A stretch of 64,000 bases of DNA from Amphiura filiformis. Its lineage: Eukaryota; Echinodermata; Ophiuroidea; Amphilepidida; Amphiuridae. Made by a program: the position numbers and the translations under genes. The notes under the pieces were generated by a model. That model had not been told where the DNA came from, did not search any database, and was given only the letters and a program-made list of their open reading frames with translations. Location of the stretch: the NCBI RefSeq assembly GCF_039555335.1, contig NC_092628.1, forward strand, positions 69,841,706 through 69,905,705, written 5' to 3'. This document shows positions 21,601 to 63,849 of the stretch, piece after piece. The stretch's first letter is position 1; every line of letters begins with the position of its first letter.

Positions 21601-24600
21601 GCACATGCTTCTTCCCTGTGTGCTTGTCTGTGGGGAAAAAATGTACAAAAATAGAATTAGAGGGATAACATTGACAAGGTGGAACATTGGGTTGTTCCAC
21701 AAGAAAATAACAAAAAAAACAAAAAAAAAACAAAAAACAGTGCTATCATGTCTTACATGTAAATTGCTTCCTACATGTTTGAGTAAAGCCAAACTTTACT
21801 TTACCATCAATTTTCATCATAAATAACTGTGTAAGGCCAAAAAAAAAGTCTGCCTCATGACCCCTGAGCGATTACAATTCCAATGCGGTATGCATTTTTA
21901 TATTTTCATTTTATCAATAAATCAGGTGCTCAGGGGGGTTACCCCTTTGAAAACTAACCAGTTTTGGCCCAATATGTTTTGCCAATGGCAATTTGTCTTC
22001 ATTTTTCATGTTTTTTTTAAAATAAAATAACTATGGAAAAACAGTGGCATGATCGACAGGACCCCAGGTTGAAATTCGAACCCATAAGCGGTCACTTTAT
22101 TATGTTTATTTAATAAAATAACAATTGTGAAATATGAAATCATGAAATCCAATGCGTGCAGACGGTGCAGGGGACATAAGACAAATCCATTTTTTTGGCC
22201 TAACATAATTACGTATATAGTTTCTTAAAAGAACATTTCACAATGTACATACCATAATGTTCATTAAATATATCCTGCACTGACGTAATCAACTCTGCTC
22301 TCAACCCTTTACCAGATACACCTTCTGTTGAAATAATAAAAGCTATTGTAATACAAAATATTGTTGTACACCATATCATACTTCACAAATATAGCTTCAT
22401 GTCATAAATGTAGCAAACTGAAATACTCATAAAAGAGTATGACCTTCATATTTAACAACATGACCATTAATTGCTTCTGACTTGCAAACATTATAAGGAA
22501 CTGCAACATTATTGCAAATACATTATAGATCACCCATCATGCCCAAATGAGTTATTTTGATCCTTCAAAATACAAAATAAAATGTAGCATCATCATCTTC
22601 ATGTTTAATTATGTACTTCTGTCACATCAGCAACACATGTTTCTTATAGTAGGTAGTGCAGTGAAACCAACATTTTTTTCTAAAATGCTTACCAAGTTCA
22701 AAACAATGACAGGTCTAAACAAGCTTTTCTTTTGCTACATACCTCTGCCTCCAACCTTATACTGAAACTCCCTGATCTTCCCTTTGTCATCCTCTTTCAA
22801 ATACTCCAGTCCAAGCATACTTCCTGCATACGAATTCCCATCTTTCTCATGAGCCGCTATAAAGTAGGACTCATAGTCCAACTCCTCCTTTAAAAATGAG
22901 CACTGTAAGACGGGGAGAGTGGGTGTGACATGACAGGTTAATGGATAAGATAGGGTCAATTTATACAAGTTTGGTATTACGCAATCTGAACACTAATGAT
23001 GACATGGTCGTCTACAGCCTGAAACCATGAAATTGTCCAATCAGATTATATGTCTTCGAACAAGGCCACTCCCACTGACTAAGAATATTATGTTATCAAG
23101 TATGTGGTATCATTTACACAGGCTTGGTTTGAAGACAAATGTTCAGTCTTTATGTGTTCATTAAGAATTTTTGTCAAAACAATCCATATATTGGGTCAAT
23201 GCTTAATTTCTTGCTTAGGTCGACTCTTGTAGTCGGACTCCCATATATATATTTTACAAACTGTTTTATCCAGCAAACAATTTTTGATGTCTGGTCTTGT
23301 TAATTCTGTATCATCTGCCATTGGGTCAATGGCCAAACTTCATTACATATTTATCACCGCTCATAATTTCAACATTTCCAGCTTAGGTGTCTGACAGGGA
23401 GGGCCTTCAAACAAAACAGTATATTGACACAGTTTCTACATACCAATTTCGAAATTTGTCTTGTAACATGAATAGCAATTGTTCTTCTCCTTGAAGGATC
23501 AATTGGAGTAGGCAATTCCTCCTCTCTGTTCTGGACAGATGCCCTCAATGTTGCCATTGTGTCCAGGTCTTCTTTGGCCTCAGCCCAAGCTTCATGCATT
23601 TCTGAAAACAATTGCCTTTTGTCTTCCTCAGATTTCTGTTCTGTAATGTAAGAGATACACTATTACCAGTTATACTCTCATTCAATTAGTTTGCTGGGAA
23701 GTCTGAATTTCAAACCTAATAACATGCAAGTTTGTATGGGACCATCTCATGAAATACATAATTACAATCAAATTCCTTGCTCAACCCTTTATACTCCCTT
23801 TTCAATGTACTATTGTACTCCCTATACATGTTTGTTTCAGCCTGTGGTTCTAGTTTTTTATTCAGATACTTCAACTCCTGGGACTTAAATTGTCTGTGTG
23901 ATGAAAGTCATATCCTCACCTTGTGACCCTAATATTATGTAATGGTAACACACACTTACTACAACTTTGGTTAACTTGTACTTAAATGGTGAAATAAACT
24001 GAACTGAACAAAATGATCAATGACTTTCATAAAAGTTGTAGGAATATTTTTGTTACACAGACTACGAAGAGGGGGGGGGGGCATGTTGCAACCCCCTAAT
24101 TTTCAATTATAAAAGTCATATAGTACCATTATATTTGGTACCAATGTCTAGATATGGTCCTGTGTCACAACCTGGGGTACCTTTGTGTTACATAGTAAAA
24201 AAATGAAATGGTTCAAACATTTTACCTACACATCTCATTTGAAGTGGTTCATTCTTCTGAGCATTTTGACACCTTTTTTATGGAAATCGGTTAAAAAATG
24301 AGAGAGTGCGGGCAAAAACAATCACAAAGTAGGGAGGATGTAACCCCACCTCTTTTTTCCACATTTACAATCATTCTGAGCAAGTATTGGTCTTTTAAAT
24401 AAACTTCTGTATTTATATACTTGGTTTAGATTTCTGGGAGTTCATTTAGACATTTTTTTACTAGATTCAAATTTTTAAAGGGAGTTTTAAGTCAAATTTA
24501 CAATATGAATCCCTCCCCTAATCCTCCTCCCCCTAATCCTCAGCCACCCTTGGCACATTTCATTTCAATCTTCATAAGAAAATAATTAAAAAATATTTTA

Positions 24601-30600: not shown

Positions 30601-33157
30601 TAAAGCTGCCCTCGCAAAACCATGCTGACGATGTGGACGAATTGTTGTTTTAAAAACTGTTATGAACAATTTTGCACAACCATAAACATGATCATGATTG
30701 AATCCAAAATCTTGATTCTACTAACTATAGTTTTCAGCAGAGAAAGTTACTTCAGCGGTCTGCCACTTGACGCAGTTTATAACTTTATGGCGCATACGGA
30801 AGTGTGGTTCTGATTGTCTCATTGAATCACCTCATCATAACATCGGCACTTCATTCGCCGGTCAAGCTGTGTTTACAACGTGTGACCTCACATGTACAAG
30901 AGACAAGAGAATTATAGTCAGCATGACATTTATTCGAGAACTCTAGCTTCAAATTTGCACACGGTAGTTACGCATTTGATAGAGTGCGTTGCTTTTATTG
31001 CTTTTCGGTAGGACACCGGTGCAATTTTTTTGCACCAGAGGTCATTTTATTTATTCTGTTAATGTGGAAATTTGGATAACAGTTATTTCGATGAGTCAAC
31101 TGTATCTTTTGAGGAAGATTTGCCTTATAGTATTTTCTGTGATCGGCTGTGTTAACTTCTGAACTTCCATTGCCATTTTTGACACAAAAGATATAGGATG
31201 ATGATGCTGTGTGACACTCACTGTCATGAATGTGCATGATGTATTAATAGTCCGAATAATCAGACCCAGAACAAAATATTAATTTCTGACATGATCGTGT
31301 ACTGGGTCTGAACTGTTTCCATATGTGAAATCTTGATGGCAAATTGGACAATAGAAGCACATGGTTCTACATGACAGGTTTTTAATCTCTATTCATGTTA
31401 CGTGAATCACGCTAATATTGTGGACCATCCTTCTGATACTTGAGTGTTTGGACAAGCGGAACGGTCTTTTGTCTACCTCTCTGTTTGTAAACAAACCAGT
31501 AGGTCGAAATCCCGGAGGGGGTTCTCCCTGGTTGAAGGTGTACGGGGATGTGCCACGGTTTTGGGGTACCTTTTCAGCAATTTTGGTAGACCAATGCGCC
31601 CACTTGGGCGCATTTGGGCAAAAATGCCCCTAAAAGCGATCAATTAGGGCAAATTTTGGGTGCTTTTTGGGTGTATTTTGCGAAAAATTGGTATACTGAT
31701 GGGTGGCAAAAACAGCAAAAAGTAGGTATAGAGAAAGTCAGCATCCGAAAATCTGCGTGGCACATCCCCGTAAATTTTTTCGAAGAACCCCCCCGGGGTC
31801 GAAATCGTCCTCCTCGCCGAATACAAAAGTCCGCAGCGTAATAGTACGGCACTACATGATGTACACGGTGTCATCACCAGGCCAGGGTTCGAATTCGGCT
31901 GTATCGCATAGCAGGCAGATTTTGAAGTAACTGCTACCCAGTTTTGCATTTGTATAGATAGCACTTTTTATAGTGCTTTTTTAAATAGTACCCGGTATTG
32001 AAAGTTTCGTATCCTGATTATGATGAATTAGCCAAAAACTGCTACACAAATTTTTTAAACGAATTCGAACCCTGGGGCCCTGGTCATCACTCATGCTTCA
32101 GCGAATCCAACTCTACATGTAGACTGCGGAACTCAGTCCTCAATGATAGTCAGTCATTTATCTTTTGGTCGTTACTTATATGACTATCATTTGAGGGACT
32201 GAGTTGTTATAATATATCTTCCGAGGTGCAATTTCAGACAATAGCTGGGGATTAGTGGGGCAGAGGTTATCTATTGAATCCTTTCATGACCACTGAAGCA
32301 TAGTCAAGACTGCCAAGGACACTCGGCACAAATTGAAAGACCATCACAAAAGAATGCATGCATGTCAGGTCATCGACACCAATTTGGTGTTTGTTATGTG
32401 ACAAATTTTGTGTCTGTTATGCACCTCGAAATATGTACCTTAAAGTCTGTATCTACTCTACATGTAGCCCCGGGCTCTAGCCTATTTGAAGCTATGGTGA
32501 GCCAGGCCTGCGGCTGCGGTGAGCAAATGAAATTCTGACTTGGCTAGACTTCTCGAGCAACATCTGACTTGAACATGCATGCATGATAATCACAAAAAAT
32601 AACAATGAATTGACATGAACTTTGATGCAACGCATGTATTCCATAAACATGATAAATGCACCTGAATGAACATGATGAACATGATGAATGACATGTTGAG
32701 TGATTTCATGGATTTATCACATGATCATGTATATAATTAGTGCCGTACTATTACGCTGACTTTCGTATTCGGCGAGGAGGACGATTTCGACCTCCTGGTT
32801 TGTTTACAAACAGAGAGGTAGACAAAAGACCGTTCCGCTTGTCCAAACACTCAAGTATCAGAAGGATGGTCCACAATAGCGTGATTCACGTAACATGAAT
32901 AGGGATTAAAAAGCTGTCACGTAGAACCATGTGCTTCTATTGTCCAATTTGCCATCAAGATTTCATATGGAAACAGTTCAGACCCAGTACATGATCATGT
33001 CAGAAATTAATATTTTGTTCTGGGTCTGATTATTCGGACTAGTATATAATAATATTTACCGTGAAGTTCCAACTTGAGCTTCCGCTTGAAGATGTTGGCT
33101 TTGAGTTTGACCTTCTTCGTCGTCAGTGACAGTAGTACCACGATCAGTAGACATCAT
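12584..33157 (-). CDS. Homeodomain-like protein, 13 coding exons, 481 aa
   Basis: Coding exons in transcript order: 33060-33157, 28205-28349, 26539-26704, 23444-23640, 22743-22902, 22253-22324, 21460-21627, 19728-19796, 19217-19306, 17999-18049, 16922-16972, 13936-14042, 12584-12655. All junctions are GT/AG, every phase agrees, and the total is 1446 nt including TGA. Residues about 39-92 form a homeodomain-like three-helix unit: HKTILEELWNKGL, DKAKKLMEEARQRTN, then TKKQIQNWIGGKNRSHR. The invariant Trp is present (W83), but the usual base-contacting Asn three residues later is Gly (G86), with an Asn two positions on (N88). Residues 103-150 are Lys/Glu-rich and helical. Residues 185-335 look conserved in style but I recognise no family. 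Residues 336-423 are acidic and Ser/Thr-rich, and the C-terminus is basic and NLS-like. I infer a nuclear protein; DNA binding is unproven. Introns are loaded with MITEs. Confidence 0.85.
13936..14042 (-). CDS. Homeodomain-like gene, exon 12
   Basis: Acceptor acttttag and donor GTATGT. The exon enters with two bases of a split Ala codon and leaves in phase 0. It encodes residues 423-458, ending in a basic stretch (NRKAKK) that continues in the last exon. Confidence 0.85.
14439..15331. mobile_element. Mariner-like MITE with TA duplication
   Basis: TIRs start CAGGGTGATTTAAAATGAAC at 14439, with the inverse ending at 15331, flanked by TA on both sides (14437-14438, 15332-15333). A roughly 100-bp internal segment is duplicated (about 14900-15000 and 15198-15296). 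There is no transposase frame. It lies in intron 11 of the homeodomain-like gene. TA sites and CAGGGTG ends fit Tc1/mariner elements. Confidence 0.8.
16922..16972 (-). CDS. Homeodomain-like gene, exon 11
   Basis: Acceptor caaacaacag, donor GTAATG. The 51-nt exon is symmetric (enters and leaves after the first codon base) and encodes a short linker, PTTILERINYSLASGS. Confidence 0.75.
17247..17559. mobile_element. TA-flanked MITE (Tc1/mariner-type ends)
   Basis: TIR CACTGTCGAAGT and its inverse sit between TA dinucleotides at 17245-17246 and 17560-17561. Arms of about 80 bp pair imperfectly. It lies in intron 10 of the homeodomain-like gene. Confidence 0.75.
17999..18049 (-). CDS. Homeodomain-like gene, exon 10
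   Basis: Acceptor ctttaaattag, donor GTATGT. Symmetric 51-nt exon encoding an acidic linker (EENQDPDDMEFQVESL). Its end resembles the EDLTG ends of exons 8 and 9. Confidence 0.8.
   Translation of the reverse strand: MRRIRTQMIWSFKLKV
18257..18640 (+). pseudogene. Non-LTR retrotransposon reverse transcriptase tail, decayed
   Basis: The frame at 18257-18541 contains TKERRLLLLGHLTNLRLPDD followed by TPAKLALQED. This strongly recalls the RR-LGH-R-LPDDTPAK-AL signature near the C-terminus of CR1/Jockey-type ORF2 proteins. After the stop at 18539 a second frame continues with ERPTWGNFIDCAMSNC and another stop, so the copy is dead. It sits in intron 9 of the homeodomain-like gene, on the opposite strand. 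Assignment is from memory of the motif only. Confidence 0.5.
18933..19160. mobile_element. 228-bp MITE with TTAA flanks
   Basis: Arms of about 65 bp (left from AGAGGAAGCCCCGC, right ending GGGCTTCCACT) face each other across a loop of about 100 bases. TTAA flanks both sides (18929-18932, 19161-19164). The paralogous segment near 19670-19685 lacks the element and gives the empty site, so insertion followed the local duplication. TTAA suggests piggyBac- or Kolobok-type integration. Confidence 0.75.
19217..19306 (-). CDS. Homeodomain-like gene, exon 9 (duplicated exon B)
   Basis: Acceptor ccatctag, donor GTTTGT. Symmetric 90-nt exon, Ser/Thr/Asp-rich, ending VEDLTG. Flanking intron sequence on both sides matches that around exon 8, so the two arose by tandem duplication. 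Confidence 0.85.
19510..19820. repeat. Tandem segmental duplication carrying exon 8
   Basis: This segment (beginning GACTATCCATGGCTTTGTGG, ending at the acceptor side ATGGATTGGATAT) is the paralogue of 18768-19325. The latter also carries the 228-bp MITE. Each copy has one symmetric coding exon. Confidence 0.85.
19728..19796 (-). CDS. Homeodomain-like gene, exon 8 (duplicated exon A)
   Basis: Acceptor ccatctag and donor GTTTGT are the same as exon 9. The 69-nt symmetric exon encodes TRNDEEVPRTRSSSSYEFED then LT. The encoded ends match exon 9; the middle has diverged in length and sequence. Confidence 0.85.
19866..20146. mobile_element. MITE with about 70-bp inverted arms
   Basis: CGAGGGCTTAGAGCAAGAAC at 19866 is inverted at the other end, finishing at 20146. 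ATAT flanks both sides (19862-19865, 20147-20150). Non-coding hairpin in intron 7 of the homeodomain-like gene. Confidence 0.8.
21460..21627 (-). CDS. Homeodomain-like gene, exon 7
   Basis: Acceptor ttttccccacag, donor GTAAGC. Encodes residues 280-335, including EGRVHVEVEGFPPDVEFKKP and NNKTLADI. The codon pattern is clearly protein-like, but I recognise no family. The plus-strand frame over the same bases is a shadow. Confidence 0.9.
21835..22200. mobile_element. Harbinger-like MITE, TAA duplication
   Basis: Starts GGCCAAAAAAA, ends TTTTTTTGGCC, flanked by TAA at 21832-21834 and 22201-22203. Inner parts of the arms also pair (CAATGCG-type words). It lies in intron 6 of the homeodomain-like gene. 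Confidence 0.7.
22253..22324 (-). CDS. Homeodomain-like gene, exon 6
   Basis: Acceptor ttatttcaacag, donor GTATGT. Symmetric 72-nt exon encoding GVSGKGLRAELITSVQDIFN then EHY, probably helical. Confidence 0.85.
22743..22902 (-). CDS. Homeodomain-like gene, exon 5
   Basis: Acceptor ccgtcttacag, donor GTATGT. Encodes residues 203-255: CSFLKEELDYESYFIAAHEK, then a Gly-rich turn, GSMLGLEYLKEDD and EFQYKVGG. It reads like the core of a compact alpha/beta domain that I cannot name. Confidence 0.9.
23444..23640 (-). CDS. Homeodomain-like gene, exon 4
   Basis: Acceptor cttacattacag, donor GTATGT. Encodes residues 137-202: a charged helix (SEEDKRQLFSEMHEAWAEAK), then PTPIDPSRRRTIAIHVTRQI leading into exon 5. 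Confidence 0.9.
24787..25350. repeat. Degenerate tandem repeat, unit about 157 bp
   Basis: Words such as GTTGAGTGA, TTTTTGTGA, TTATTGTAGCAG and CAGTATCCAAGCCAGG recur in the same order at about 24791, 24949 and 25106, with a weaker fourth copy towards 25290. The array lies in intron 3 of the homeodomain-like gene. Units are strongly diverged. Confidence 0.6.
26126..26516. mobile_element. Harbinger-like MITE next to a splice donor
   Basis: Left end GGCTGAGTAAAAAAATACAT, right end ...TTTTTACTTGGCC, flanked by TTA at 26123-26125 and 26517-26519. The subterminal block TTTCTCGTCCG is inverted on the other side. It ends 17 bases from the exon 3 donor. A relative with the same GGTTCTCGTCC-type subterminus lies at 53534-53916. 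Confidence 0.8.
26539..26704 (-). CDS. Homeodomain-like gene, exon 3 (recognition helix)
   Basis: Acceptor aacatcgctag, donor GTAAGA. Starts in phase 0 with NWIGGKNRSHRED, completing the homeodomain-like third helix begun in exon 2, and ends with a split Glu codon. It contains a 14-A run read as GAA followed by four AAA codons; the frame holds only at exactly this length. Confidence 0.9.
26985..27245 (-). repeat. Interspersed repeat, family shared with 46.97 kb
   Basis: This segment, read on the minus strand, matches 46970-47245 read on the plus strand. Shared words include ACCACTGGAAAC, GCAGATTAATTC, TAGCAAAAATATTG, CAGTGGCCTAT and ATGCTAGGATCACAAAAT. No coding frame or TIRs noticed. Confidence 0.75.
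28205..28349 (-). CDS. Homeodomain-like gene, exon 2 (helices 1-2)
   Basis: Acceptor ttataatacag, donor GTACAT. One base completes the Arg codon left by exon 1, then 48 codons end in phase 0 at KKQIQ. A second AG 13 bases inside would break the frame set by exon 1, which supports this acceptor. Confidence 0.9.
28599..29920. mobile_element. 1.3 kb TIR element in intron 1
   Basis: A perfect 20-bp TIR, GGCTAGACTTCTCGAGCAAG at 28599-28618, is inverted at 29901-29920. A solo copy of the end lies at 32541-32560. Inside, GCTGATGTGGCAGTGAC and its inverse (about 28774-28790 and 29133-29152) mark a nested palindrome. Segment 29207-29450 recurs at 32120-32400. Confidence 0.7.
30027..31162. mobile_element. 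Inverted-repeat element in intron 1
   Basis: Blocks TCAGAAGTAAACACAGCCGA (30027) and CTCAAAAGATACAGTTGACT (30117) reappear inverted and in mirror order at about 31141-31162 and 31091-31113. Arms are about 140 bp with a spacer near 900 bp and no coding frame. Confidence 0.65.
31249..33040. mobile_element. Large palindrome beside exon 1
   Basis: Left arm 31249-31853 (with a 287-bp insert plus its 8-bp duplication inside) pairs with right arm 32738-33040; the spacer is about 880 bp. Outer ends read AGTCCGAATAATCAGACCC. The arms remain nearly identical over about 300 bp once the insert is removed. The right arm stops 20 bases short of the exon 1 donor. Confidence 0.85.
31511..31797. mobile_element. 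287-bp MITE with 8-bp duplication
   Basis: Ends CCCGGAGGGGGTTCT and AGAACCCCCCCGGG with a further inverted block ACGGGGATGTGCCAC. GTCGAAAT flanks both sides (31503-31510, 31798-31805). The opposite arm of the host palindrome has the uninterrupted site at 32784-32791. Eight bases fit hAT-like integration; reading 9-10 bp is also possible because of shared G/C at the border. Confidence 0.85.
33060..33157 (-). CDS. Homeodomain-like gene, exon 1 (start codon)
   Basis: Two consecutive ATG codons (33155-33157 and 33152-33154) open an acidic, Gln/Thr-rich N-terminus (STDRGTTVTDDEEGQTQSQ). Donor GTAAAT follows at 33059. The exon leaves two bases of an Arg codon that exon 2 completes. The upstream side holds a short CA repeat; no TATA box is obvious. 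Confidence 0.8.
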
Positions 33158-39245: not shown

Positions 39246-42200
39246 GTAAGTATTTCTTAGATAAATACTAAATAGAAATTTGATATATTTTGCTTCAAAT
39301 ACTGCTCATCACTGCTGAAATGTTGATTACCGATACATTGATGTACCATTTTACACATCTGAATTTATTATTTTTGTTTTCCCATTTAAGGAAGGTGTCA
39401 GCATGCAAAAGAAGAGGAAGAAGAAGAAGAATGACTCCTACAAAAGAAAGAGTAAGAATTGGAAGACTGAAAAACGTAGGCAAGCAAGACAGAAGGAGAG
39501 GGAAGAGGTAGGTCTATAGATTTATAATGTTGTGAATGTGAGTGACAACAAATCATTGTGCATAGCTTATAACATAGCATTAACCAACTATAAAAGCAAC
39601 AGTAGGCCTACATGTATAAGAGACCTGTACAAATTAAATAAAATTGATCACAAAATTCTGTTCGGCCACATTATGGTACTTTTGCCGCTCAGGCCAAATA
39701 TAAAGGAACGGTGCTCAACAGAGGATGATTTAAGCACTTCCCAGCAAGTCTTGCGGTTAGCACAGCTGTGTGAGTGAACATGACACCACTGCCATGCGTG
39801 CATGGTTAAATTTGAATTTGGACAGATATATTTACAATAAAAACACCTTCAAAAAGTTGGTCGATTTCACATTTTATGTTATCTACAGAAGGTGTGAATT
39901 ATCCTTCATGCATACATCACTTTAAATCTGAAATCGACCAAGTAATAATGACACACGGGCAATTCTAAAACAACATCTTTTGCACAGAGTTCAATGGGAT
40001 TTGAAAAGTAAAGTGGCAGTTGAAACTCTAGTGATAACACTTTTACAGTGCATGATGGGGCTTCCTTAAATCATCCTCTGGGTGCTCAATGAGCTACATG
40101 TACTGTATGGCCATTAAAATACTCAATATTAAATTAATATCTATATTCTCTGGTACCGGTACATGTACAGCAGGTGCAACTGTATACGAGTAGAGAATCC
40201 ATGTAAAAAGTTAATCCCTAAATGTGTTTGCGAGTTATGCAAATAAAATGCATATTGCTCCATACGTGTTGGCCAATATGCTGTAATTTTGTTCTGTTTA
40301 ACGCGGCTGTGTACTCTAGACATTGTTTCTATCGCGAAATTAAGCTGTTTGGAAATGTATTTACTTTGTCATGTTTTTTATAAATACAAGGAAAGAAAAT
40401 CCAGATTTGTTAACTCTAACTGCTCTATTTCATGGATTTTGTTTCACTATTTCACTCGTTTCCGCAATTTTAAAGGAAAAAATCTTTGTTGTACCATCGG
40501 GGTACACGTGCGCTAAAACACATCGTGTTTTGTAGTCGCACAATTTGTTAACTCACAGATACGGTCAAATGGCTCCGTTTTAGCTGATAAAATGTGAATT
40601 TTTTCAAGTTCTTTCCTAGATTTAAACATCAAGATCAGCTGCATGATCTAGAAAGTATGCACCCTCGATACCTAATATGTGTACATCCATATCAAAACGA
40701 TGCACTTGCCGGCTGCTACATGTGTCTCATTTCAAAGAATAGCTACAATGTAGGAATAAATACCAGACTCATCTCAAGTGGAGGTCACTTCAAATCATCC
40801 CCAAGTCACATGTTTAAGGAATGTTCTCTGTATTCATAAACCATGTGACTTGGGATGATTTGACGTGACCTCCACTTGAGATGAGTCTGGTATTTATTCC
40901 TAGCTATTCTTTGAAATGAGACACATAGGAGCCGACAAGTGCATCGTTTTGATATGGATGTACACATATGGATACCTTTCAGGTAGTAGGGTAGTAGGAC
41001 ACCCGAAAACCTTTTGGGACAGCGAATAACTTTTGTTGATGCTAGCTGGATATAACTCTGGAAAGGCATTGTTTGGAATTTCACAAAATGTTTGTCCTGA
41101 AACGTGTCTGTTACAAATGCCACGCATTGAATTAACGGAAGACGTACATGCATCATATTTATGAATCGTAAAAAAAATGTAACACTTGGGATTTTTTTAC
41201 TTGTTTTTTGATACATAGAAGCGTAACCAGCATGAGCCATCTACTAGTACATCAAATAATGACCTTTCCCAGACAGAGATCAATGATGAGGGAAACAAAA
41301 GAAGTTGCAGTGGAAAAAACAAGGTTAGTATATGGATGTTCATGTTGATTTTCAGTCTGAAAGTATCAACCCACAAAACTTGTGACTTAAATGCCAACCT
41401 TGAGGTCCCCACTGAAATGAGATTGTCCTATATTAGAAACAAAACAATAACACATTGGCCGATATAGAACATCAACTTTTCAACCACATTTTGGGACAAG
41501 GCTTTGACTCGTTTTCATATATATACTTGAAGCATGTTGAAGAAACATCTCTTTGATCTCACAGTTTGCAAAGATGATGAGCTTTCTGTTAGTATCATCT
41601 CAATTTGATGTGTAAAGTGTGTCGGGTCTATGTCAATCTAAAATCCTGAATCAAAATAAAATATGCAAGTATAAAATATGTAACACTTGGTTTTTTCATT
41701 TGTTTTTGATACATAGAAGCGTAACCTGCATGAGCCATCTACTAGTACATCAAATAATGACCTTTCCCAGACAGAGATCAATGATGAGGGAAACAAAGAA
41801 GTTGCAGTGGAAAAAAACAAGGTTAGTATATGGATGTTCATGTTGATTTTCAGTCTGAAAGTATCAACCCACAAAACTTGTGACTTAAATGCCAACCTTG
41901 AGGTCCCCACTGAAATGAGATTGTCCTATATTAGAAACAAAACAATAACACATTGGCCGATATAGAACATCAACTTTTCAACCACATTTTGGGACAAGGC
42001 TTTGACTCGTTTTCATATATACTTGAAGCATGTTGAAGAAACATCTCTTTGATCTCACAGTTTGCAAAGATGATGAGCTTTCTGTTAGTATCATCTCAAT
42101 TTGATGTGTAAAGTGTGTCGGGTCTATGTCAATCTAAAATCCTGAATCAAAATAAAATATGCAAGTATAAAATATGTAACACTTGGTTTTTTTCACTTGT

Positions 42201-44354
42201 TTTTGATACATAGAAGCGTAACCTGCATGAGCCATCTACTAGTACATCAAATAATGACCTTTCCCAGACAGAGATCAATGATAAGGGAAACAAAGAAGTT
42301 GCAGTGGAAAAAAACAAGGTTAGTAAATGGATGGGAAAGAATGCCAAACTTTGAGTTCCCCCTTCGTGCAACTGCTTTTTGTACTCACAAAAGTAGCCAC
42401 CAAATCCATATGGTCATGTGCTAGTGATTTTTTAGCTGTACGAGGACAAGATGTTGATTAAGTTATCAACTAGAGAATTTTGACCAAGGCCTCATACTTT
42501 TTAATCTATAGCGGCATTTTTCAAACTGTATACTTTATTTAGATAACACCCTGTGTATCACTCTTAAGGTGGTACTACACCCCCTGATAAATTATGTGAC
42601 TAATTTTGCATTTTTCTCACAAAATAACTACACACTGGTAACAAAAGTTATGTATATTATAGGGGCAAGGAATCCAATTACTTCACTGAAATATCAGTGA
42701 TTCAAGACAAGTGGTTCATTATATGTTAATTTGAATGACTTATCCTTCACTTTTAAGCAATCTATAAATAATTTTATACACTTGTGCTGGGATCACTGAA
42801 TGGATCTTTAAGGATGATGTGACCAGTTTGGAAATTCCTTTTCCAAAAAGCAATAGTGCCATTGACGGGCAATCTTCACCTTAGACAGAAAGTAAACATA
42901 TGTATGAGACCATTATTTTTCGCACTATAATGAGCATAAGGACCAGTGATTAATATATACAGACAAAATTTCATTAATATATAACTGCTTCACTTCTGGG
43001 TGATTTAAAAAAAAAAATTCAAACCCCATTATTTTTCGCATCATAATGAGCATAAGGACCAGTGATTAATATACACAGAACAAATTTCATTAATATATAA
43101 CTGCTTCACTTCTGGGTGATTAAAAAAAAATTCAAACCCCCTCATGCATGTATATCGGTATTCACCAGATCTGGTGAATATACAGGTGTCTAGAAAATTT
43201 CATCTCTAGAGTACTATAAGCATGTAATTCAAAGCATATTTTTTATTGCATTTCAGCAAAGTCAGTTTATGTGGCCTCATCAAAAGATAACAACAGCAAA
43301 ACAAGCCCCACCACAGACCAATCCACAGGAAAAGATGGAGACATATTTAAAAAAAGAGCAAGAACACAACCAAGTACTACAGAGGCAACTGTCAACTGTC
43401 ACTGCAGACTTGGTTGACCTGAAGGAACGGCATGCCCACTGTGTGCATGAAAGAATAAGGCCGGCAGTGTTGAGCAGGACCATGACCATGGTTGAAGCAG
43501 TAACTATATTAAGTTCTGGGTACTGCTACATGCAGCCAGAACTTGATGAGGTAGACCATGAAGGGGTTGCTGATTTAGATGTAGATTTTAGAAAGAAACA
43601 ATTATTTAGAAGTAGTGATGATAGTAGTGTATATATAATACCTAGTAATAATCCCACATTGTATGTTATAGATTACACCAACCGGTTCAACAAAGCGACA
43701 CTGGAATTCAAAGTTCTAAAAATGAACACGGATGTTGAAGGTATTCAGAGGCCGGTTGGTTTATACAGAAAGGAGGATGCGTGCCATGTTCATTGCTTGG
43801 TGACAACTTCACCAAATATTCCAATGAAAGATGACACGATGGTTACAGCCTCCAACATTTCGGCACAGAAGGGTATTGATGTATCTAAGGAACAATGGTT
43901 GCAGATTTTTATGGATACTGCCAAAGCCCTTCAAGGGCTTCATGACAATGGTTTTATCCACAATCAAGTGCGACCTGACAATATCCAGCTTGTGTATAAG
44001 AGAAGAGGTAACAAGAAGAAAATTCGTGCAGAGCTTATAGACATGTCTTTGTCTTGCATGGAGAAGTACTCACGCAAGCTAACAGAGATTCAGGTATTTT
44101 CTCTCAGTTCACTAGAACATAACTTCTTAGACCCTGTACTACTAAAGCGAGCAACTCATCCAAGCAAAGTTACTGATGTGTATGCATTTGGTCAAACCAT
44201 CCAACATGTGGCTGTGCAGAATGATATCTCGTCCAGAGTCCGAAGTCTTGCAGATCAATGCATGCAAGACTCTTTTTTAAGTAGACCAAACATGTATGAT
44301 ATATGCAGACAAATTTACCTTATTGGTCAAGATATGCAATTTACCGTTGTTTAA
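39177..44354 (+). CDS. Pseudokinase with coiled coil and triplicated linker exon
   Basis: Coding exons: 39177-39245, 39391-39507, 41219-41323, 41717-41821, 42214-42318, 43257-44354. All introns are phase 0 with GT/AG borders; the product is about 532 residues. An in-frame TGA at 39153 and an acceptor at 39149-39150 place the start at 39177 within an exon with 26 bases of 5' UTR. Domains: polar N-terminus, Lys-rich block (24-62), three 35-residue copies (63-167), coiled coil (about 192-228), kinase fold (about 270-520). Kinase landmarks: VIDY replaces the VAIK lysine motif (304-307), HNQVRPDN replaces HRD-K-N (402-409), IDMS replaces DFG (428-431), DVYAFG (474-479) and RPNMYDICRQI are kept. 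Catalysis is therefore unlikely; a scaffold or binding role is inference. The domain looks TKL/IRAK-like, but no family name is certain. Confidence 0.88.
39391..39507 (+). CDS. Pseudokinase gene, coding exon 2 (basic)
   Basis: Acceptor ttcccatttaag, donor GTAGGT. Thirty-nine residues with QKKRKKKKNDSYKRKSK, a likely nuclear localisation or RNA/DNA-binding patch. Confidence 0.85.
40675..40969. mobile_element. Foldback element in intron 2 of pseudokinase gene
   Basis: Arms 40675-40812 and 40842-40969 pair over about 130 bp with a 29-base loop. The word TTCAAATCATCCCCAAGTCA also occurs at 60577-60596, so it belongs to a dispersed family. The 144-aa minus-strand frame across it is an artefact. 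Confidence 0.85.
41219..41323 (+). CDS. Pseudokinase gene, exon 3 (linker copy 1)
   Basis: Acceptor gatacatag, donor GTTAGT, 35 codons, phase 0-0. It differs from copies 2 and 3 by one extra A in an A-run and one missing A 19 bases later, so KRSCSGKNK replaces KEVAVEKNK and the frame is regained. Confidence 0.85.
41717..41821 (+). CDS. Pseudokinase gene, exon 4 (linker copy 2)
   Basis: Same borders and phase as copy 1. Encodes KRNLHEPSTSTSNNDLSQTE and then INDEGNKEVAVEKNK: polar, Ser/Thr/Asn-rich, probably unstructured. Confidence 0.9.
42214..42318 (+). CDS. Pseudokinase gene, exon 5 (linker copy 3)
   Basis: Same borders and phase; differs from copy 2 by INDKGNK for INDEGNK. Donor GTTAGT is intact. 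Confidence 0.9.
42911..43142 (+). repeat. Tandem duplication, unit about 113 bp
   Basis: Two near-identical copies start ATTATTTTTCGCA(C/T) and end with an A-run and TTCAAACCCC. It lies in the last intron of the pseudokinase gene and is a recent local duplication, non-coding. Confidence 0.9.
43257..44354 (+). CDS. Pseudokinase gene, last exon
   Basis: Acceptor tttattgcatttcag, entry in phase 0 at CAA AGT CAG TTT ATG. The 365 codons of the coiled coil and whole kinase-like domain lie in one exon. This may reflect a retroposed or intron-lost domain later joined to upstream exons. The stop TAA is at 44352-44354. Confidence 0.93.
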   Translation, partial: QSQFMWPHQKITTAKQAPPQTNPQEKMETYLKKEQEHNQVLQRQLSTVTADLVDLKERHAHCVHERIRPAVLSRTMTMVEAVTILSSGYCYMQPELDEVDHEGVADLDVDFRKKQLFRSSDDSSVYIIPSNNPTLYVIDYTNRFNKATLEFKVLKMNTDVEGIQRPVGLYRKEDACHVHCLVTTSPNIPMKDDTMVTASNISAQKGIDVSKEQWLQIFMDTAKALQGLHDNGFIHNQVRPDNIQLVYKRRGNKKKIRAELIDMSLSCMEKYSRKLTEIQVFSLSSLEHNFLDPVLLKRATHPSKVTDVYAFGQTIQHVAVQNDISSRVRSLADQCMQDSFLSRPNMYDICRQIYLIGQDMQFTVV

Positions 44355-48668: not shown

Positions 48669-49395
48669 AACTCTAAACTCAAATTGAGACCTGGTTGACT
48701 TAAGGTGGCCCTATACTGAAGCTGGGAGCCTGGTTGACTTCAGTTTAACAGTGGTTCTAAACTGAAGTTGGGAGCCTGGTTGACTTGGGTTTAACAGTGG
48801 CTCTAAACTGAAGTTGGGGGGCCTGGTTGACTTAAGTTTAACAGCGGCTCTAAACTGAAGTTGGGAGCCTGGTTGACTTAAGTTTAACAGTGGTTCTAAA
48901 CTGAAGTTGGGAGCCTGGTTGACTTGGGTTTAACAGTGGCTCTAAACTGAAGTTGGGGGGCCTGGTTGACTTAAGTTTAACATCGGCTCTAAACTGAAGT
49001 TGGGAGCCTGGTTGACTTGGGTTTAACAGTGGCTCTAAACTGAAGTTGGGGGGCCTGGTTGACTTAAGTTTAACAGCGGCTCTAAACTGAAGTTGGGAGC
49101 CTGGTTGACTTCAGTTTAACAGTGGTTCTAAACTGAAGTTGGGAGCCTGGTTGACTTGGGTTTAACAGTGGCTCTAAACTGAAGTTGGGGGGCCTGGTTG
49201 ACTTATGTTTTACAAGGGCCCTAAACTGAAGTTGGGGGGGGCCTGGTTGACTTAGGTTTTACAAGGACTCTAAACTGAAGTTGGGGGGGGGCTGGTTGAG
49301 TTCGGTTTTACAAGAGCTCTAAAATGAAGTTGTGGGCCTGGTTGACTTTGGTTTAACAATGACAGCTGAACCTGATGGCTTGGTTGACTTATGGG
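48669..49395 (+). repeat. Minisatellite, unit 46-47 bp, about 15 copies
   Basis: Units follow CTAAACTGAAGTTGGGAGCC then TGGTTGACTT and a TTTAACAGYGG block. Three sub-types (differing at GGGAG/GGGGGG and TTCAG/TTGGG/TTAAG) alternate in an A-B-C order several times, giving a higher-order period near 140 bp. The outermost units are more diverged, as in expanding arrays. Confidence 0.95.
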
Positions 49396-55758: not shown

Positions 55759-56943
55759 TTATTGATGATCATAGATCAACTGCAGATTTAACATAATTAG
55801 CAACAACATGAACTGTATCATGATCGTTAACATTCATAATTAAATGAAATTTGTTATTAACAAACATTGAATTGAAATCAAATATAGCACTAAATTTATC
55901 AAACAAATTAACATGCAAGTTTATTCAGTTATTATAAACGAACAACGCATAACAAAATGGAATTCATCTTCAACCTCGTGAAGCTCACAAAAAGTACAAA
56001 GACGATCTTCAGGAGGATTTTTTGGTGAGGAATAACGGTGACATCCCGCTATCTCTAAGGTCCGCTATCTCTAAGGTTCGCTATCTCTAAGGTTCGCTAT
56101 CACTAACGTGTAAAGTCTATGGAGATCAGAATCCGCTATCTCTAATAGAGAAAAAGGTTCGCTATACCTAAAAAAAGGTCCGCTACTTCTAAGGTTCGAT
56201 ATCACTAATTTAGAATAAGGTTCGCTAGTTCTAAGGTTCGATATCACTAATTTTAAATAAGGTTCGCTATCACTAATTTAAAATAAGGTTCGCTATCACT
56301 AATTTTGAATAAGGTCCGCTATCACTAATTTATTGAAGGTTCGCTATCTCTAAGGTTAGTTATCACTAATTCCAATAAAGGTCCGCTATACCTAAGGTTC
56401 GCTATCACTAATTTTGTTTAAGGTTAGCTATCCTAATTAATTAAGGTTCGCTATCTCTAAGGTTCGTTATCACTAATTTGGGACCGCTATAGCTTAACCT
56501 TATTTGAAGAGATAGAGATAGCGAACCTTATTTAAAATTAGAGATAGCGAACCTTATTTAAAATTAGAGATAGCGAACCTTATTTGAAATTAGTGATAGC
56601 GAACCTTAGAGATAGCGAACCTTCAATAAATTAGTGATAGCGGACCTTATTTAAAATTAGAGATAGCGAACCTTAGAGATAGCGAACCTTCAATAAATTA
56701 GTGATAGCGGACCTTATTTAAAATTAGAGATAGCGAACCTTATTTAAAATTAGTGATATCGAACCTTAGAAATACCGAACCTTTTTCAAAATTAGTGATA
56801 TCGAACCTTAGGTATAGCGGACCTTTTTCGTAATTAGTGATAACGAACCTTAGAGATAGCGAACCTTAGAGATAGCGAACCGTAACCGGAATAACAACCC
56901 TTTTCAATCATGAGCTGATGAGCGCTGATACGAAGTTTTTACA
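55759..56943 (-). pseudogene. Non-LTR retrotransposon ORF2 C-terminus, interrupted
   Basis: Minus-strand frame: KLRISAHQLMIEKGCYS at 56943-56888, then, beyond an 851-bp insertion, SPKNPPEDRLCTFCELHE and VEDEFHFVMRC. These match the usual end of RTE/CR1-type reverse transcriptase proteins (S-H-L-IE-GRY, RLC-C, E-E-HF--C). A frame slip and one TGA near 55940-55965 are followed by about 50 open codons ending at TAA (55759). The copy is dead. Family assignment is from motif memory, not search. Confidence 0.7.
56037..56887. mobile_element. Foldback-type element of inverted short-repeat arrays
   Basis: The left half (56037 to about 56490) is some 20 tandem variants of AGGTTCGCTATCTCTAA, alternating with ACTAATTTTAAATAAGG spacers. 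The right half is the inverse, with sub-variants in mirrored order. GGAATAAC flanks both ends (56029-56036, 56888-56895). Termini begin GGT. No protein is encoded. Terminal arrays of short direct repeats in inverted orientation are the hallmark of foldback elements; the family is not identified. Confidence 0.85.
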
Positions 56944-58089: not shown

Positions 58090-58330
58090 GGATCGGATAA
58101 CAATGTTTGCACGTTTTTTTTGTGGGTCATGAGAGCACATTGGACATATTGAATTGCATTCTGAATACTAGGAATGTTCTTCTGGTATCGAATACTAATT
58201 TTATGTCAAATTATCAAAAATGTATATTTTCTTATTTGTGATATTTAACAGTCCTTGAAGTAAACTTAACAAATCAAATGATATGTACTTAAAGTAAATA
58301 TGTAGCTGGGATGAGAGGTCGGCCACCATT
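58090..58330 (+). repeat. Diverged solo arm of the 59.9-kb palindromic family
   Basis: Words GGGATCGGATAACAATG, GGTCATGAGAGCACATTGGA, ATTGAATTGCATTCTGAATA and AAAGTAAATATGTAGCTGGG run in the same order as the arm at 60138-61000. Only one arm is recognisable. Confidence 0.7.
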
Positions 58331-59894: not shown

Positions 59895-61393
59895 GGCCCT
59901 TCGCACTTGATTATTACCGGTAGTTTCCTGTTAAAGATTTTGAAAAAGGGACGAGGTGACTTTTAATTATTAATTATCTTTTATTTTCTTTATTTAGTTA
60001 TTACAATTATAACTATTACAAGTAACTATTGACTTGTTTTGACTAGAGCGGGCATTTAATTAGTTCACAACAAAATTTGTTGTAGTTGAAAGTTATTTTA
60101 AACGAGAAAATTAGATATAAAAATAAAATAATTAAGGGATCTGGAATGAGCGTTTCGACAGTATTTTTTGTGGATCATGAGAGCACATCAGACATATCGA
60201 ATTGCATTCTGAATACGAAGAATGTCTTTCTGATATCAAATAATTTTCATTTTTTGAAAATCACGATTATAATACAAATTCTATGACAAATTATTAAAAT
60301 TTGATATTTTTCACATTTTTGATATATGTGACCGTCCACGGCGAATGAGCCGTAAATTCCTCCCCCCGGTCAATTTGGTTTTATTTCGTGTTTAAAAAAT
60401 AAACATCATAAACTTAAAAATGGTATATCATTTGACTTCAAACGATATCCAGAAGCGGAGTTATGGTTAGTTAAACTTTGCTCCTTCAACAAAATTACAG
60501 CTTTTTTGGTTTCTATGTGTGTCTCTTTTTCCACATTGCTGGCAATAAATATCAAACAGTCATAATTGGCGGTCATTTCAAATCATCCCCAAGTCAACGA
60601 GGTCTAAGAAGGTTCTCTCATTGTTAATTGTTGGTTATGCATACCTATACAAATAACCCACCACTTGAAAAGGATTTATCAAAAGCAAACAAAGACCAGA
60701 GCTATTAAAAGTTCTATAGCCATCTAAGGTAGAAGCTTATTATCCACTTCAATAATAGGATTATTGATTGGTGTTGTGACTATCCAAATAAGACAGATAT
60801 CGCGCCAGCTTAAGTGACCGATGAATACGACCTTCGTACACATTTTACACCATAACTCGAATACAATTTAGGGAATTTACGGCTCGTTTGTGCTGCCGGG
60901 TCACATATAACAGTCCATTTCATAAATCTAATGACATATTCTTAAAGTGTATGTAGCTTGGAGGAAAAGCCGACGATCAATTGAAAATGTTGACCTTTCA
61001 TATTGAAGATATGGAGTTTTGGGGAAAAAATCCATATCTTCAATACGAAAGGTCAAAATTTTCAATTGATCGTCGGCTTTTCATCCCACCTACATACACT
61101 CTAAGTATAAATCATCAGATTTATCAAGTTTACTTCGAGTATTGTTAAATATCAAAAATATCAATTTTTAATCATTTGCAATCAAATGTGTATTACATTG
61201 CGAATTTCAAAAAATCAAAATTATTTGATATCAGAAGGACATTCTTCGTATTCAGAATACAATGTCTGATGTGCTCTAATGTCCCACAATAAATACTGTC
61301 CAAACGTTCATTCCCCACCCCTTAATTATTTTGAGATTTTCAATTTTGGATGCGGGCGGCAAACAGGAAACTAATAATCAAGTGCGAAGGGCC
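59895..61393. mobile_element. Harbinger-like palindromic element, TTA duplication
   Basis: TIR GGCCCTTCGCACTTGATTAT at 59895 and its inverse ending at 61393, with TTA on both sides (59892-59894, 61394-61396). Long arms pair around a centre near 61020-61030; the left arm is split by a second element. The right end lies 66 bases from the stop codon of the minus-strand gene at 61460. Confidence 0.85.
60323..60908. mobile_element. Nested TIR element inside the palindrome
   Basis: TATATGTGACC...GAGCCGTAAATTCC at the left is inverted at 60870-60908 (GGAATTTACGGCTCG...GGTCACATATA). TA or ATA is duplicated at the border. The unbroken right arm of the host gives the approximate pre-insertion sequence. 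The interior includes TTCAAATCATCCCCAAGTCA shared with the 40.7-kb foldback. Confidence 0.75.
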
Positions 61394-61459: not shown

Positions 61460-61849
61460 TTATTCATCATCAATTTCATCATTATCTGCATCCATGTCCA
61501 TTATCACATACTCATTCACTATGGAAGTTTCATCAATGGCTGTCTGTAAATCTCCAGTTCTTATAACTTGTGGTACTGGAGGAGATTGTATGTATTTTGT
61601 AAAAATCTTGTGAGCTTGAACATACACTTCTCTTGCCGCTTCTGTTTTTTCCCTTAGTGCTATAAGCACACCTTCACTGTGTTGTTTGTTCAAGGCCTCT
61701 TCAGCAAGCTTGTTGTGCTGCCAAGCCAAGAACTGAAGTGCTGACTGCATTTCAACTGCAACCAGATCCTTCTCCTCTTGTGCTCTGTTGTTCATATTTC
61801 TGACATTAACCAATCGCTGCTTTTCAGTATGTGGTACTTGCTCACCAAT
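61460..61849 (-). CDS. Unknown gene, terminal exon
   Basis: Begins IGEQVPHTEKQRLVNVRN after the acceptor at 61850-61851 and stays open for 129 codons to TGA or TAA at 61460. Composition is Glu/Ala/Gln-rich, so an amphipathic helix or coiled coil is likely from about codon 25 to codon 80. Confidence 0.8.
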   Translation of the reverse strand: MGEQVPHTEKQRLVNVRNMNNRAQEEKDLVAVEMQSALQFLAWQHNKLAEEALNKQHSEGVLIALREKTEAAREVYVQAHKIFTKYIQSPPVPQVIRTGDLQTAIDETSIVNEYVIMDMDADNDEIDDE

Positions 61850-63650
61850 CTAAATATTATACAAAAAAGTAAGAAATAAAAGTAATAGAAATTGCTCCTT
61901 TTAGATTTCATAATAGTATTTCTTAATACTTGCTACCGGTCACAATGAAAATATTTTCAAATAGCAAGATTAATACTGTAGGAATTTTCTTCTGAGGTCA
62001 GAGCATGGAATAAAAAATAAGCATTTTGATCCTTTCTGAAATATGACTCCACCTCTTAAAAATAGCACCTTGTTCACTAGATAATCACAGGACCACAAGC
62101 CACTTTTTTCCAAATGTGTAGCTCATAGACCAGTACCCTTTATTTTCAGGCTTGCATGTATATAGTTAGAAAATGTAAGTTTTAGTTGTATTCCTGTGAG
62201 CTTTTCCCAAGGGTGCTATACTACTAAGCCATGTTGTCAAATTTTCAACAACCTTGTTGATTTAAAATGAAGTAAATTCAAGTTTGTGACGCTATTGTTA
62301 GAAATCTAGAAGGAATCTGCTGTAAATGAAAATATTATCAAAAAGAGCAGAATCAGAACATCTAAATTAAAAAATGTATTGTTGTATTTGCTTAGACCTG
62401 AGCAAACCTACTCATTTGAATTAAACCACCCATTTTTGTATTTGCATACGGTTTCTCTTCCCAAGCATATGTCATGATCATGGTAGTGTGTTGACTGGTA
62501 TAGCGCGATATTCAAATGCAAAATAAAGTTTGTGTGGCATGAGTGGTTTCGATCAAAAATGATGGGCCTCAAGAGTTCTTTTTAATTTTTCAATTTCAAT
62601 TTCATCATATTGCACTGCAAACAAAGAAACAAGTCAAGTACAATAAATTATGGCACTTCAATTATGGCGTCAAAGTTTCATGAAACTAGTATTCCATGTG
62701 AAGTTCATCGTCTCTTTCATCTTCAGTTTCTTACAGCTGATCGAATATCAAGTACGTGTAAGTAAGCAAAATAAGAATGTAGGCAAGCTTTGAAGCATGT
62801 GACTGTAATGATCCGACAGTCTGAAGCCTCATGGTCTGGATGGAAGCCAGCAAACTCCAAGATCACAAGTAAACATTGCTCAAGTTAGGCATGCGTTGCA
62901 AATAAAAAAGTAAACCCAAAGATAAGCAGCTCAAGGCGCAATTCCGCGCAAACGCCTTCAACAATTCCCAAGCGGACCATCTAGAAGACTATGAATTACA
63001 CAAGTTATAAGAGTTATCATAGCAATACAAGGAGATATCCATACAAACTGCAGCACCATCGTGGATTTTGCATTTGAACATAAAAGGTACATGTAGTGCC
63101 ATACCAATCAATACACTACACACATGGTTAAGTGAAACCAAATTATGGTTAGTAAAAGTCAGATTTGGTGTAAGCAAATACAACAATTCTTTTTTTAATA
63201 CTTAGACTTCAGAATCTGTTCCTTTCAAAGATATTTTCATTTACAGCAGTTTGCTTCTACATTTTGTTACAAAAGCCTCACAAACATGAGTTTACTTCAT
63301 TCTGAATCACCCTGTATAAATTATGTGCTTGAAATTACAAAAAGGAAATCTATTTTGCAAAGTGAATCATAAGGAAATCAGATGGACACATTCCGACTAT
63401 TACAAGAAATACACAGGATGAACAACATGGCTACTGAAATACTTGCTTACATCTGAATTTTCCGCAGGTGCATCTATGTTCTTAAAGATTCCACAGGAGG
63501 GATCTGCCACCTCAGTCCATGTAAGAACATTAGGGAGCCCTCCAGAGTTGTTTTCAAACCCGGCATTGTTATACTGTCCCAATGTCGTCTTCATGCCCTT
63601 TGTAACACGTTGCAAAGATTTGGACAGTCTTGCTGCCACTGATTGGCCAT
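61460..63650 (-). CDS. 3' end of unknown gene, two exons, truncated by window
   Basis: Exons 63451-63650 and 61460-61849, joined phase 0 by donor GTAAGC and acceptor ataatatttag. The upstream exon enters with two bases of a split codon, so more exons lie beyond the right edge. The product ends with 195 codons: AARLSKSLQRVTKGMKTTLG, then LPNVLTWTEVADPSCGIF, then a long helical stretch (EEKDLVAVEMQSALQFLAWQ onwards) and an acidic end DMDADNDEIDDE. The pattern EE-L----M---L-FL-W faintly recalls the C-terminus of KDZ-type (Kyakuja-Dileera-Zisupton) transposases. I hold that loosely; a host coiled-coil protein is equally possible. Confidence 0.75.
62248..63316. mobile_element. Inverted-repeat element in the intron of the truncated gene
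   Basis: GATTTAAAATGAAGTAAAT... and CTGCTGTAAATGAAAATATT... at 62250-62400 recur inverted in mirror order at 63165-63312, the right end reading TCACCCTGTA. This fits an old mariner-like MITE of about 1.07 kb with a diverged left end. Confidence 0.6.
63451..63650 (-). CDS. Unknown gene, penultimate exon
   Basis: Acceptor ttaaattttag before ATGGCC, where AT completes a codon begun upstream; donor GTAAGC after GAT. Sixty-six full codons, no stop. The ATG at its start is out of the used frame. Confidence 0.75.
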
Positions 63651-63849
63651 CTAAAATTTAAAAGAAACATCAGATACCATATATGAAAAATAATATACTG
63701 TAAGCTTATATTTTGCATTTAGCATTCACATATTGATTCAAGGAAGAGGTTAACATGCATAGAGGCAAATCCTGCTATTCTGAGTGTCCGATTGTTTCAT
63801 GACATCCAAATGAAAAAGTAGCCTATCTTTCTCCTTGCAATGGCTGTTC

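Follow-up and report, generated by a model that had tools for sequence, protein, structure and literature searches.

An 851-bp foldback element of inverted short-repeat arrays in a LINE-like sequence of Amphiura filiformis, probably a non-autonomous DNA transposon

The TU elements of sea urchins and the FB elements of Drosophila have foldback arms made of short tandem units, about 15 bp long in TU, and TU elements are flanked by 8-bp target duplications; we bring them in for a likeness of general design, not from a comparison of sequences. Sea urchin foldbacks are also cited in the passages seen of a paper on Drosophila Tetris (PMC4079207). Among the Mutator-like elements (MULEs), the excerpts on Muta1 of Aedes aegypti describe target duplications of 8 or 9 bp, a 10-bp terminal motif, nine 12-bp repeats with 3–4 bp spacers, and over 300 putative non-autonomous derivatives; in the same excerpts, 10 of the 12 long-TIR MULE families of this species have subterminal tandem repeats of 9–15 bp (PMC5225508). 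Tm1, a Mutator/Foldback element of Meloidogyne root-knot nematodes, is described as having 13–15 bp repeats and the short end motif CGGTTAA; of 53 elements, 45 have duplications that measure 8–10 bp (PMC3169594). In Galileo and Tetris, the tandem repeats of the terminal inverted repeats (TIRs) are discussed, in the parts of the papers at hand, as secondary binding sites of the transposase (PMC3573991, PMC4079207).

We analyzed a 64-kb stretch of the brittle star Amphiura filiformis (hereafter the window; GC content 35.4%). At 56037–56887 lies an 851-bp element in which a degenerate 16-bp unit, AAGGTTCGCTATCTCTAA, forms two arrays of opposite orientation; adjacent units share two bases (AA), giving a tandem period of 16 bp. 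The element has the structure that defines a foldback, namely long inverted repeats that consist of short direct repeats and can fold back on each other. Nearly all of it is mirrored repeat, with almost no interior, and it is non-coding. Its parts are as follows.

56041..56496, plus strand: left arm, 20 AAGGTTCGCTATCTCTAA-type units and one degenerate central unit at 56479
56511..56883, minus strand: right arm, 17 inverted units
56107..56127, plus strand: left arm, 21 bp of non-repeat sequence with no clear counterpart in the right arm
56582..56715, minus strand: 67-bp tandem duplication in the right arm (56582–56648 and 56649–56715), 65 of 67 positions identical

The arms are thus unequal, about 460 bp on the left, where end motif and first unit overlap, and 377 bp on the right. 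Steps from one unit to the next were 16, 25 or 26 bp in 32 of 36 cases. All 16 steps of the right arm and 16 of the 20 in the left arm had one of these lengths, and the four irregular steps (39, 21, 23 and 20) all lie in the left arm. A step of 26 bp represents a unit with an A+T-rich spacer of 8 bp after it, for example TTTTAAAT. Of 15 units with TCAC at the variable place, 13 precede a step of 25 or 26 bp, and of 14 units with TCTC, 9 precede a step of 16 bp. Tandem Repeats Finder also reported a period of 67 at 56538–56742. When the 17-mer was searched for with up to 2 mismatches, all occurrences (14 on the plus strand and 16 on the minus strand) fell within the element; none was found elsewhere in the 64 kb, nor was a second copy of the element present in the window. 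A preliminary description of the locus had proposed these coordinates, this repeat, exact flanking copies of the word GGAATAAC and about 20 mirrored variants, all of which our analysis bore out, with 20 units and the degenerate central one on the left facing 17 inverted units on the right.

Folded as single-stranded DNA, the element was predicted to form one long hairpin of −295 kcal/mol. Dinucleotide shuffles of the sequence (n = 20) gave −81 ± 7 kcal/mol, corresponding to a z of −32, and none of the 20 was as stable. The earlier proposal of a single hairpin holds; in the predicted fold, the 22 bases at the start and the 6 at the end stay unpaired, as do the center and a portion of the left arm. 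When the left part, split off at 56465, was aligned globally with the right part in inverted orientation, 327 positions were identical, 27 mismatched and 143 gapped (counting end gaps), indicating that besides point changes there are differences of entire units between the arms.

The same proposal had the sub-variants following each other in matching order in the two arms. We addressed this by shuffling the right-arm units and scoring how often the observed arm-to-arm match was reached. With global DNA alignment, 38 of 2000 shuffles reached the observed score; when the two outer units were held fixed, 227 of 2000 did. Alignment of units as tokens gave 587, 37 and 184 of 5000 shuffles (gap 0 global, gap 2 local and gap 4 local, respectively), and the best ungapped match was reached in 21 of 300. 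With one copy of the 67-bp duplication removed, gaps of 1, 2, 3 and 4 yielded 105, 30, 44 and 94 of 5000 shuffles, respectively. Thus, the order of sub-variants is probably common to both arms, on evidence that is moderate and setting-dependent (shuffle p 0.006 to 0.12), and so weaker than had been claimed. The 16- and 26-bp steps differ by ten bases, about one turn of DNA; since a Rayleigh test of the unit positions revealed no common phase at periods of 10 to 11 bp (0.01–0.07; 0.34 and 0.24 at 5.25 bp), we do not claim helical phasing.

We then consider the borders, where a direct repeat adjoins the two ends of the element.

56029..56036, no strand assigned: target-site duplication GGAATAAC, left copy, exact match to 56888–56895
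56888..56895, no strand assigned: target-site duplication GGAATAAC, right copy, exact match to 56029–56036
56037..56046, plus strand: left end motif GGTGACATCC, preceding the first full CGCTATC core; 5 of 10 bases agree with the right end
56878..56887, minus strand: right end motif GGTTACGGTT, as read on the minus strand in an ungapped comparison with the left end

Exact 8-mer matches at the spacing set by the element occur at 10 of 63133 positions of the window, the GGAATAAC pair included. Compared without gaps from the first base, the ends read GGTGACATCC-CGCTATCTCTAAGG on the left and GGTTACGGTT-CGCTATCTCTAAGG on the right, with agreement at only 5 of the outermost 10 bases. The element's outermost bases are GGTGAC and GGTTAC. 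In a longer comparison, of GGTGACATCCCGCTATCTCTAAGGTCCGC with the inverted GGTTACGGTTCGCTATCTCTAAGGTTCGC, the ends share GGT-AC and are nearly fully alike in the core beyond it. A repeat search on its own carried the inverted register to 56036/56888, at 85% over 55 nt.

The length of the duplication is ambiguous. Since the duplicated word begins with G and ends with C, ends of the form CGGTKAC with a 6-bp duplication, GAATAA, fit as well; of the possible parses, the one with 8 bp is the simplest and the longest. Every parse excises the same 859 bp, so the reading frame at the host site cannot decide between them. Of the 8-bp target duplication put forward in the preliminary description, the exact 8-bp direct repeat stands, but the duplication may be 6 to 8 bp.

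A scan for TIRs with flanking duplications, demanding at least 12 of 16 matching end bases, missed the foldback element, and its negatives for other inverted repeats therefore carry little weight. The window holds several such repeats. At 31245–33044, long inverted repeats in three blocks (269 bp in total, 96–99% complementary, ends near TAMTAGTCCGAATAATCAGACC) delimit about 1.8 kb that is probably another non-autonomous DNA transposon, a young one, for which this insensitive scan reported no target duplication. Five short MITE-like inverted repeats, with arms of 51–109 bp that are 85–98% complementary, lie at 17244–17562, 18952–19145, 19862–20150, 40751–40902 and 60912–61134; they are among the best 25 of 103 pairs by length. 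Related blocks in both orientations at 60125–61332 and 58233–58295 (71 nt at 87%, 67 nt at 91% and 63 nt at 83%) are apparently copies of one dispersed repeat. There are also a satellite-like array of about 14 copies of a 46-bp unit at 48705–49358 and, at 41168–42350, 2.4 copies of a 498-bp tandem unit with 95% matches.

Excision of the element in silico, leaving one GGAATAAC, joins two flanking stretches.

56896..56938, minus strand: LINE-like remnant on the N-terminal side of the insertion (KLRISAHQLMIEKG...), in the joined-flank reading frame
55924..56028, minus strand: LINE-like remnant on the C-terminal side (...SPKNPPEDRLCTFCELHEVEDEFHFVMRC...), Pfam zf-RVT at E 0.14, below the cut-off

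With a single GGAATAAC, the minus-strand flanks KLRISAHQLMIEKGCYS and YSSPKNPPEDRLCTFCELHEVEDEFHFVMRC are in the same frame, and KLRISAHQLMIEKG-CYS-SPKNPPEDRLCTFCELHEVEDEFHFVMRC is open. This open island spans 52 codons with a stop at either side, indicating a LINE copy that was decayed or already dead. In the second part there is a likeness to zf-RVT, the zinc-binding tail of reverse transcriptases (E 0.14, below the cut-off), the only Pfam match of the peptide. We take the joined stretch to be the C-terminal domain of a LINE on the strength of this weak match, and the N-terminal-side part at 56896..56938 is presumably LINE as well, the zf-RVT match lying on the C-terminal side. In a search for relatives of the peptide, none of 11 pattern stretches from viral contigs was confirmed, phage records gave no match and the PDB none up to E 10, and a second copy was not found within the window. 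Thus, the proposed insertion into a LINE reading frame stands insofar as the joined flanks are open, but the frame is a decayed 52-codon island and its match to LINEs is weak. Since a third of all joins would be in frame by chance, the weight added by the frame is modest.

We searched for the repeat outside the window. A full-text literature search with four 14-mers of the unit, together with the passages seen on known foldbacks, brought up no described family with the AAGGTTCGCTATCTCTAA repeat in the article text covered. One of the 14-mers occurred once, in the text of a paper on amination in E. coli (PMC9436414), and the other three were absent from the texts searched. The exact 16-mer occurred at 21 loci in viral contigs and 18 in bacterial and archaeal genomes, none of which showed an inverted array. 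Allowing up to 3 mismatches, 38 of these 39 loci had one unit, and the remaining one had five in a single orientation. The latter, from an uncultured Thalassotalea (positions 653–1120), carries TTAGAGATAGCGAACC-type units in a tandem repeat of mostly 99 bp beside what looks by eye like tRNA-like sequence. These viral and prokaryotic occurrences, the TTAGAGATAGCGAACC-like words included, are presumably due to chance. The window gave no Rfam match at gathering scores.

As for coding sequences, 93 of the window's 106 stop-to-stop open reading frames (ORFs) of at least 75 aa were compared with Pfam, and none of these 93 matched a transposase at E 0.01. C-termini of KDZ transposases had been suspected in the ORFs at 61460–61849 and 63400–63657, for which Pfam gave no such match. 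One of the 93 ORFs, probably 21401–21742 on the minus strand as assigned by eye, has a GTF2I-like repeat match (E 4e-8). The largest open frame of the window, 43194–44354 (386 aa), matches Pkinase partially (E 4.2e-7; 30.1 bits, just under the cut-off of 31.7, and covering only profile positions 91–198 of 263) and had no PDB match at E 0.001.

A direct repeat of target-duplication size at each border, together with terminal inverted repeats and a host sequence that is interrupted, is what the insertion of a DNA transposon leaves behind, and an element without coding capacity would be a non-autonomous one. We therefore consider that the locus represents a single insertion of a non-autonomous, MITE-like foldback transposon, with a probability of roughly 0.8 for a conclusion drawn from one copy. 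Points that speak against it are the agreement of the ends at only 5 of their outermost 10 bases, the failure of the TIR scan to report the element, the moderate match of unit order and the weak LINE evidence, besides the negative transposase result for the 93 ORFs. The preliminary description had likewise argued for a mobile unit rather than a satellite; such a unit accounts better than a satellite does for the exact direct repeat, for the inverted repeat at the termini and for the frame that resumes, again within the limits of one copy. Alternatively, the unit could have been amplified in place and inverted by hairpin-primed repair, such that the locus is a locally born satellite or palindrome and both the 8-bp repeat and the frame are coincidental. 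Tandem duplication of units clearly does happen here, as seen in the 67-bp duplication, and a single known copy, an only moderately matched order of variants between the arms and end sequences that agree at 5 of the outermost 10 bases are what such an origin could produce. It does not account for an inverted-repeat register that reaches the 8-bp repeat at both sides, for the rarity of exact 8-mers at that spacing, for the absence of the unit from the rest of the window or for a LINE-like frame that resumes across the site, and we regard it as rather improbable. Still further down the scale is an assembly or read artefact, in which one read would have been joined to its own reverse complement. 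Foldback chimeras of this kind are a described problem of long reads, according to the passages seen of PMC12870357, but their arms would be near-identical and unflanked, whereas the arms here differ by substitutions and whole units and a direct repeat flanks them; such an origin is hardly credible.

Given that the element is a transposon, which transposase would move it is a matter of analogy, and the balance tips slightly toward the Mutator-like superfamily. MULE foldbacks, as their published text describes them, place short tandem repeats behind a short end motif, and here 10-bp ends, of which 5 of 10 bases agree, are followed by 16-bp units. MULE duplications are 8–10 bp; the simplest parse here is 8 bp, and the CGGTKAC parse with 6 bp, also compatible with the sequence, would not suit a MULE. 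A foldback transposon of another superfamily (P/Galileo, hAT, Merlin, KDZ/Zisupton, or one whose duplications are 6 bp long, like Dada), an account that overlaps with ours in everything except the class of transposase, is a serious if less probable candidate. The 6 to 8 bp of duplication seen here leave room for such elements. hAT ends usually begin with CA or TA, whereas those of this element begin with GG. Galileo, in the passages available, is itself a P-superfamily foldback with repeats inside its TIRs, but these are ~210 bp long and its duplications are 7 bp (PMC3573991). An end motif of ~10 bp followed by an array of short units best fits the MULE foldbacks as their excerpts present them. 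We consider it unlikely, though a shade less so than an origin in place, that the element belongs to an undescribed foldback family made almost only of spaced transposase sites (~37 copies at 16- or 26-bp steps, almost no interior), with CGGTKAC ends, a 6-bp duplication and a superfamily without known foldbacks.

Returning to the non-autonomous foldback transposon, we infer the following course of events. A transposase supplied in trans would recognize the short end motif GGTKAC..., and the arrayed 16-bp units would probably be further binding sites, as has been discussed for Galileo and Tetris. It would excise the element and join it to a staggered cut in the target, and gap repair would then make the target duplication, which the simplest parse puts at 8 bp. 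An inverted duplication seems to have given rise to the arms, which would then have changed separately through the gain and loss of units. Were more copies to exist, the element, with arms that differ by whole units and a recent 67-bp duplication in one of them, would be well suited to studying the growth of foldback arms; its spacing in two step sizes also yields a prediction, open to testing, on transposase docking. If there are no further copies, this is just another non-autonomous transposon.

The closest published design, by description, is that of the MULE foldbacks Muta1 and Tm1, as far as the passages seen of their papers go. Muta1, set beside our element by its description and not by its sequence, shares with it, in each long TIR, a short end motif followed by a tandem array, and its duplications of 8 or 9 bp would agree with the 8-bp parse. 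It differs in having 145-bp TIRs around a transposase gene, whereas the arms here, of about 460 and 377 bp, enclose almost no interior, and in its 12-bp repeats with 3–4 bp spacers as against steps of 16 or 25/26 bp (PMC5225508). Tm1, in the text available, likewise has short unequal end motifs, tandem units of 13–15 bp and unequal numbers of units in its TIRs; its 8–10 bp duplications would agree with the 8-bp parse, and its end CGGTTAA resembles the right-end CGGTTAC of our element if the 6-bp parse is taken. By contrast, its unit is CGATTCAGTATCCGC, its duplication is usually 9 bp, and it carries an inner purine motif, with a histone hairpin in its interior (PMC3169594). Galileo, of the P superfamily, and Tetris of Drosophila are similar, in the sections consulted, in their long, internally repetitive TIRs, variable repeat number and non-autonomous copies, but their units measure about 210–220 bp, and their duplications are 7 bp in Galileo, set against 6–8 bp here, and 8–10 bp in Tetris (PMC3573991, PMC4079207).
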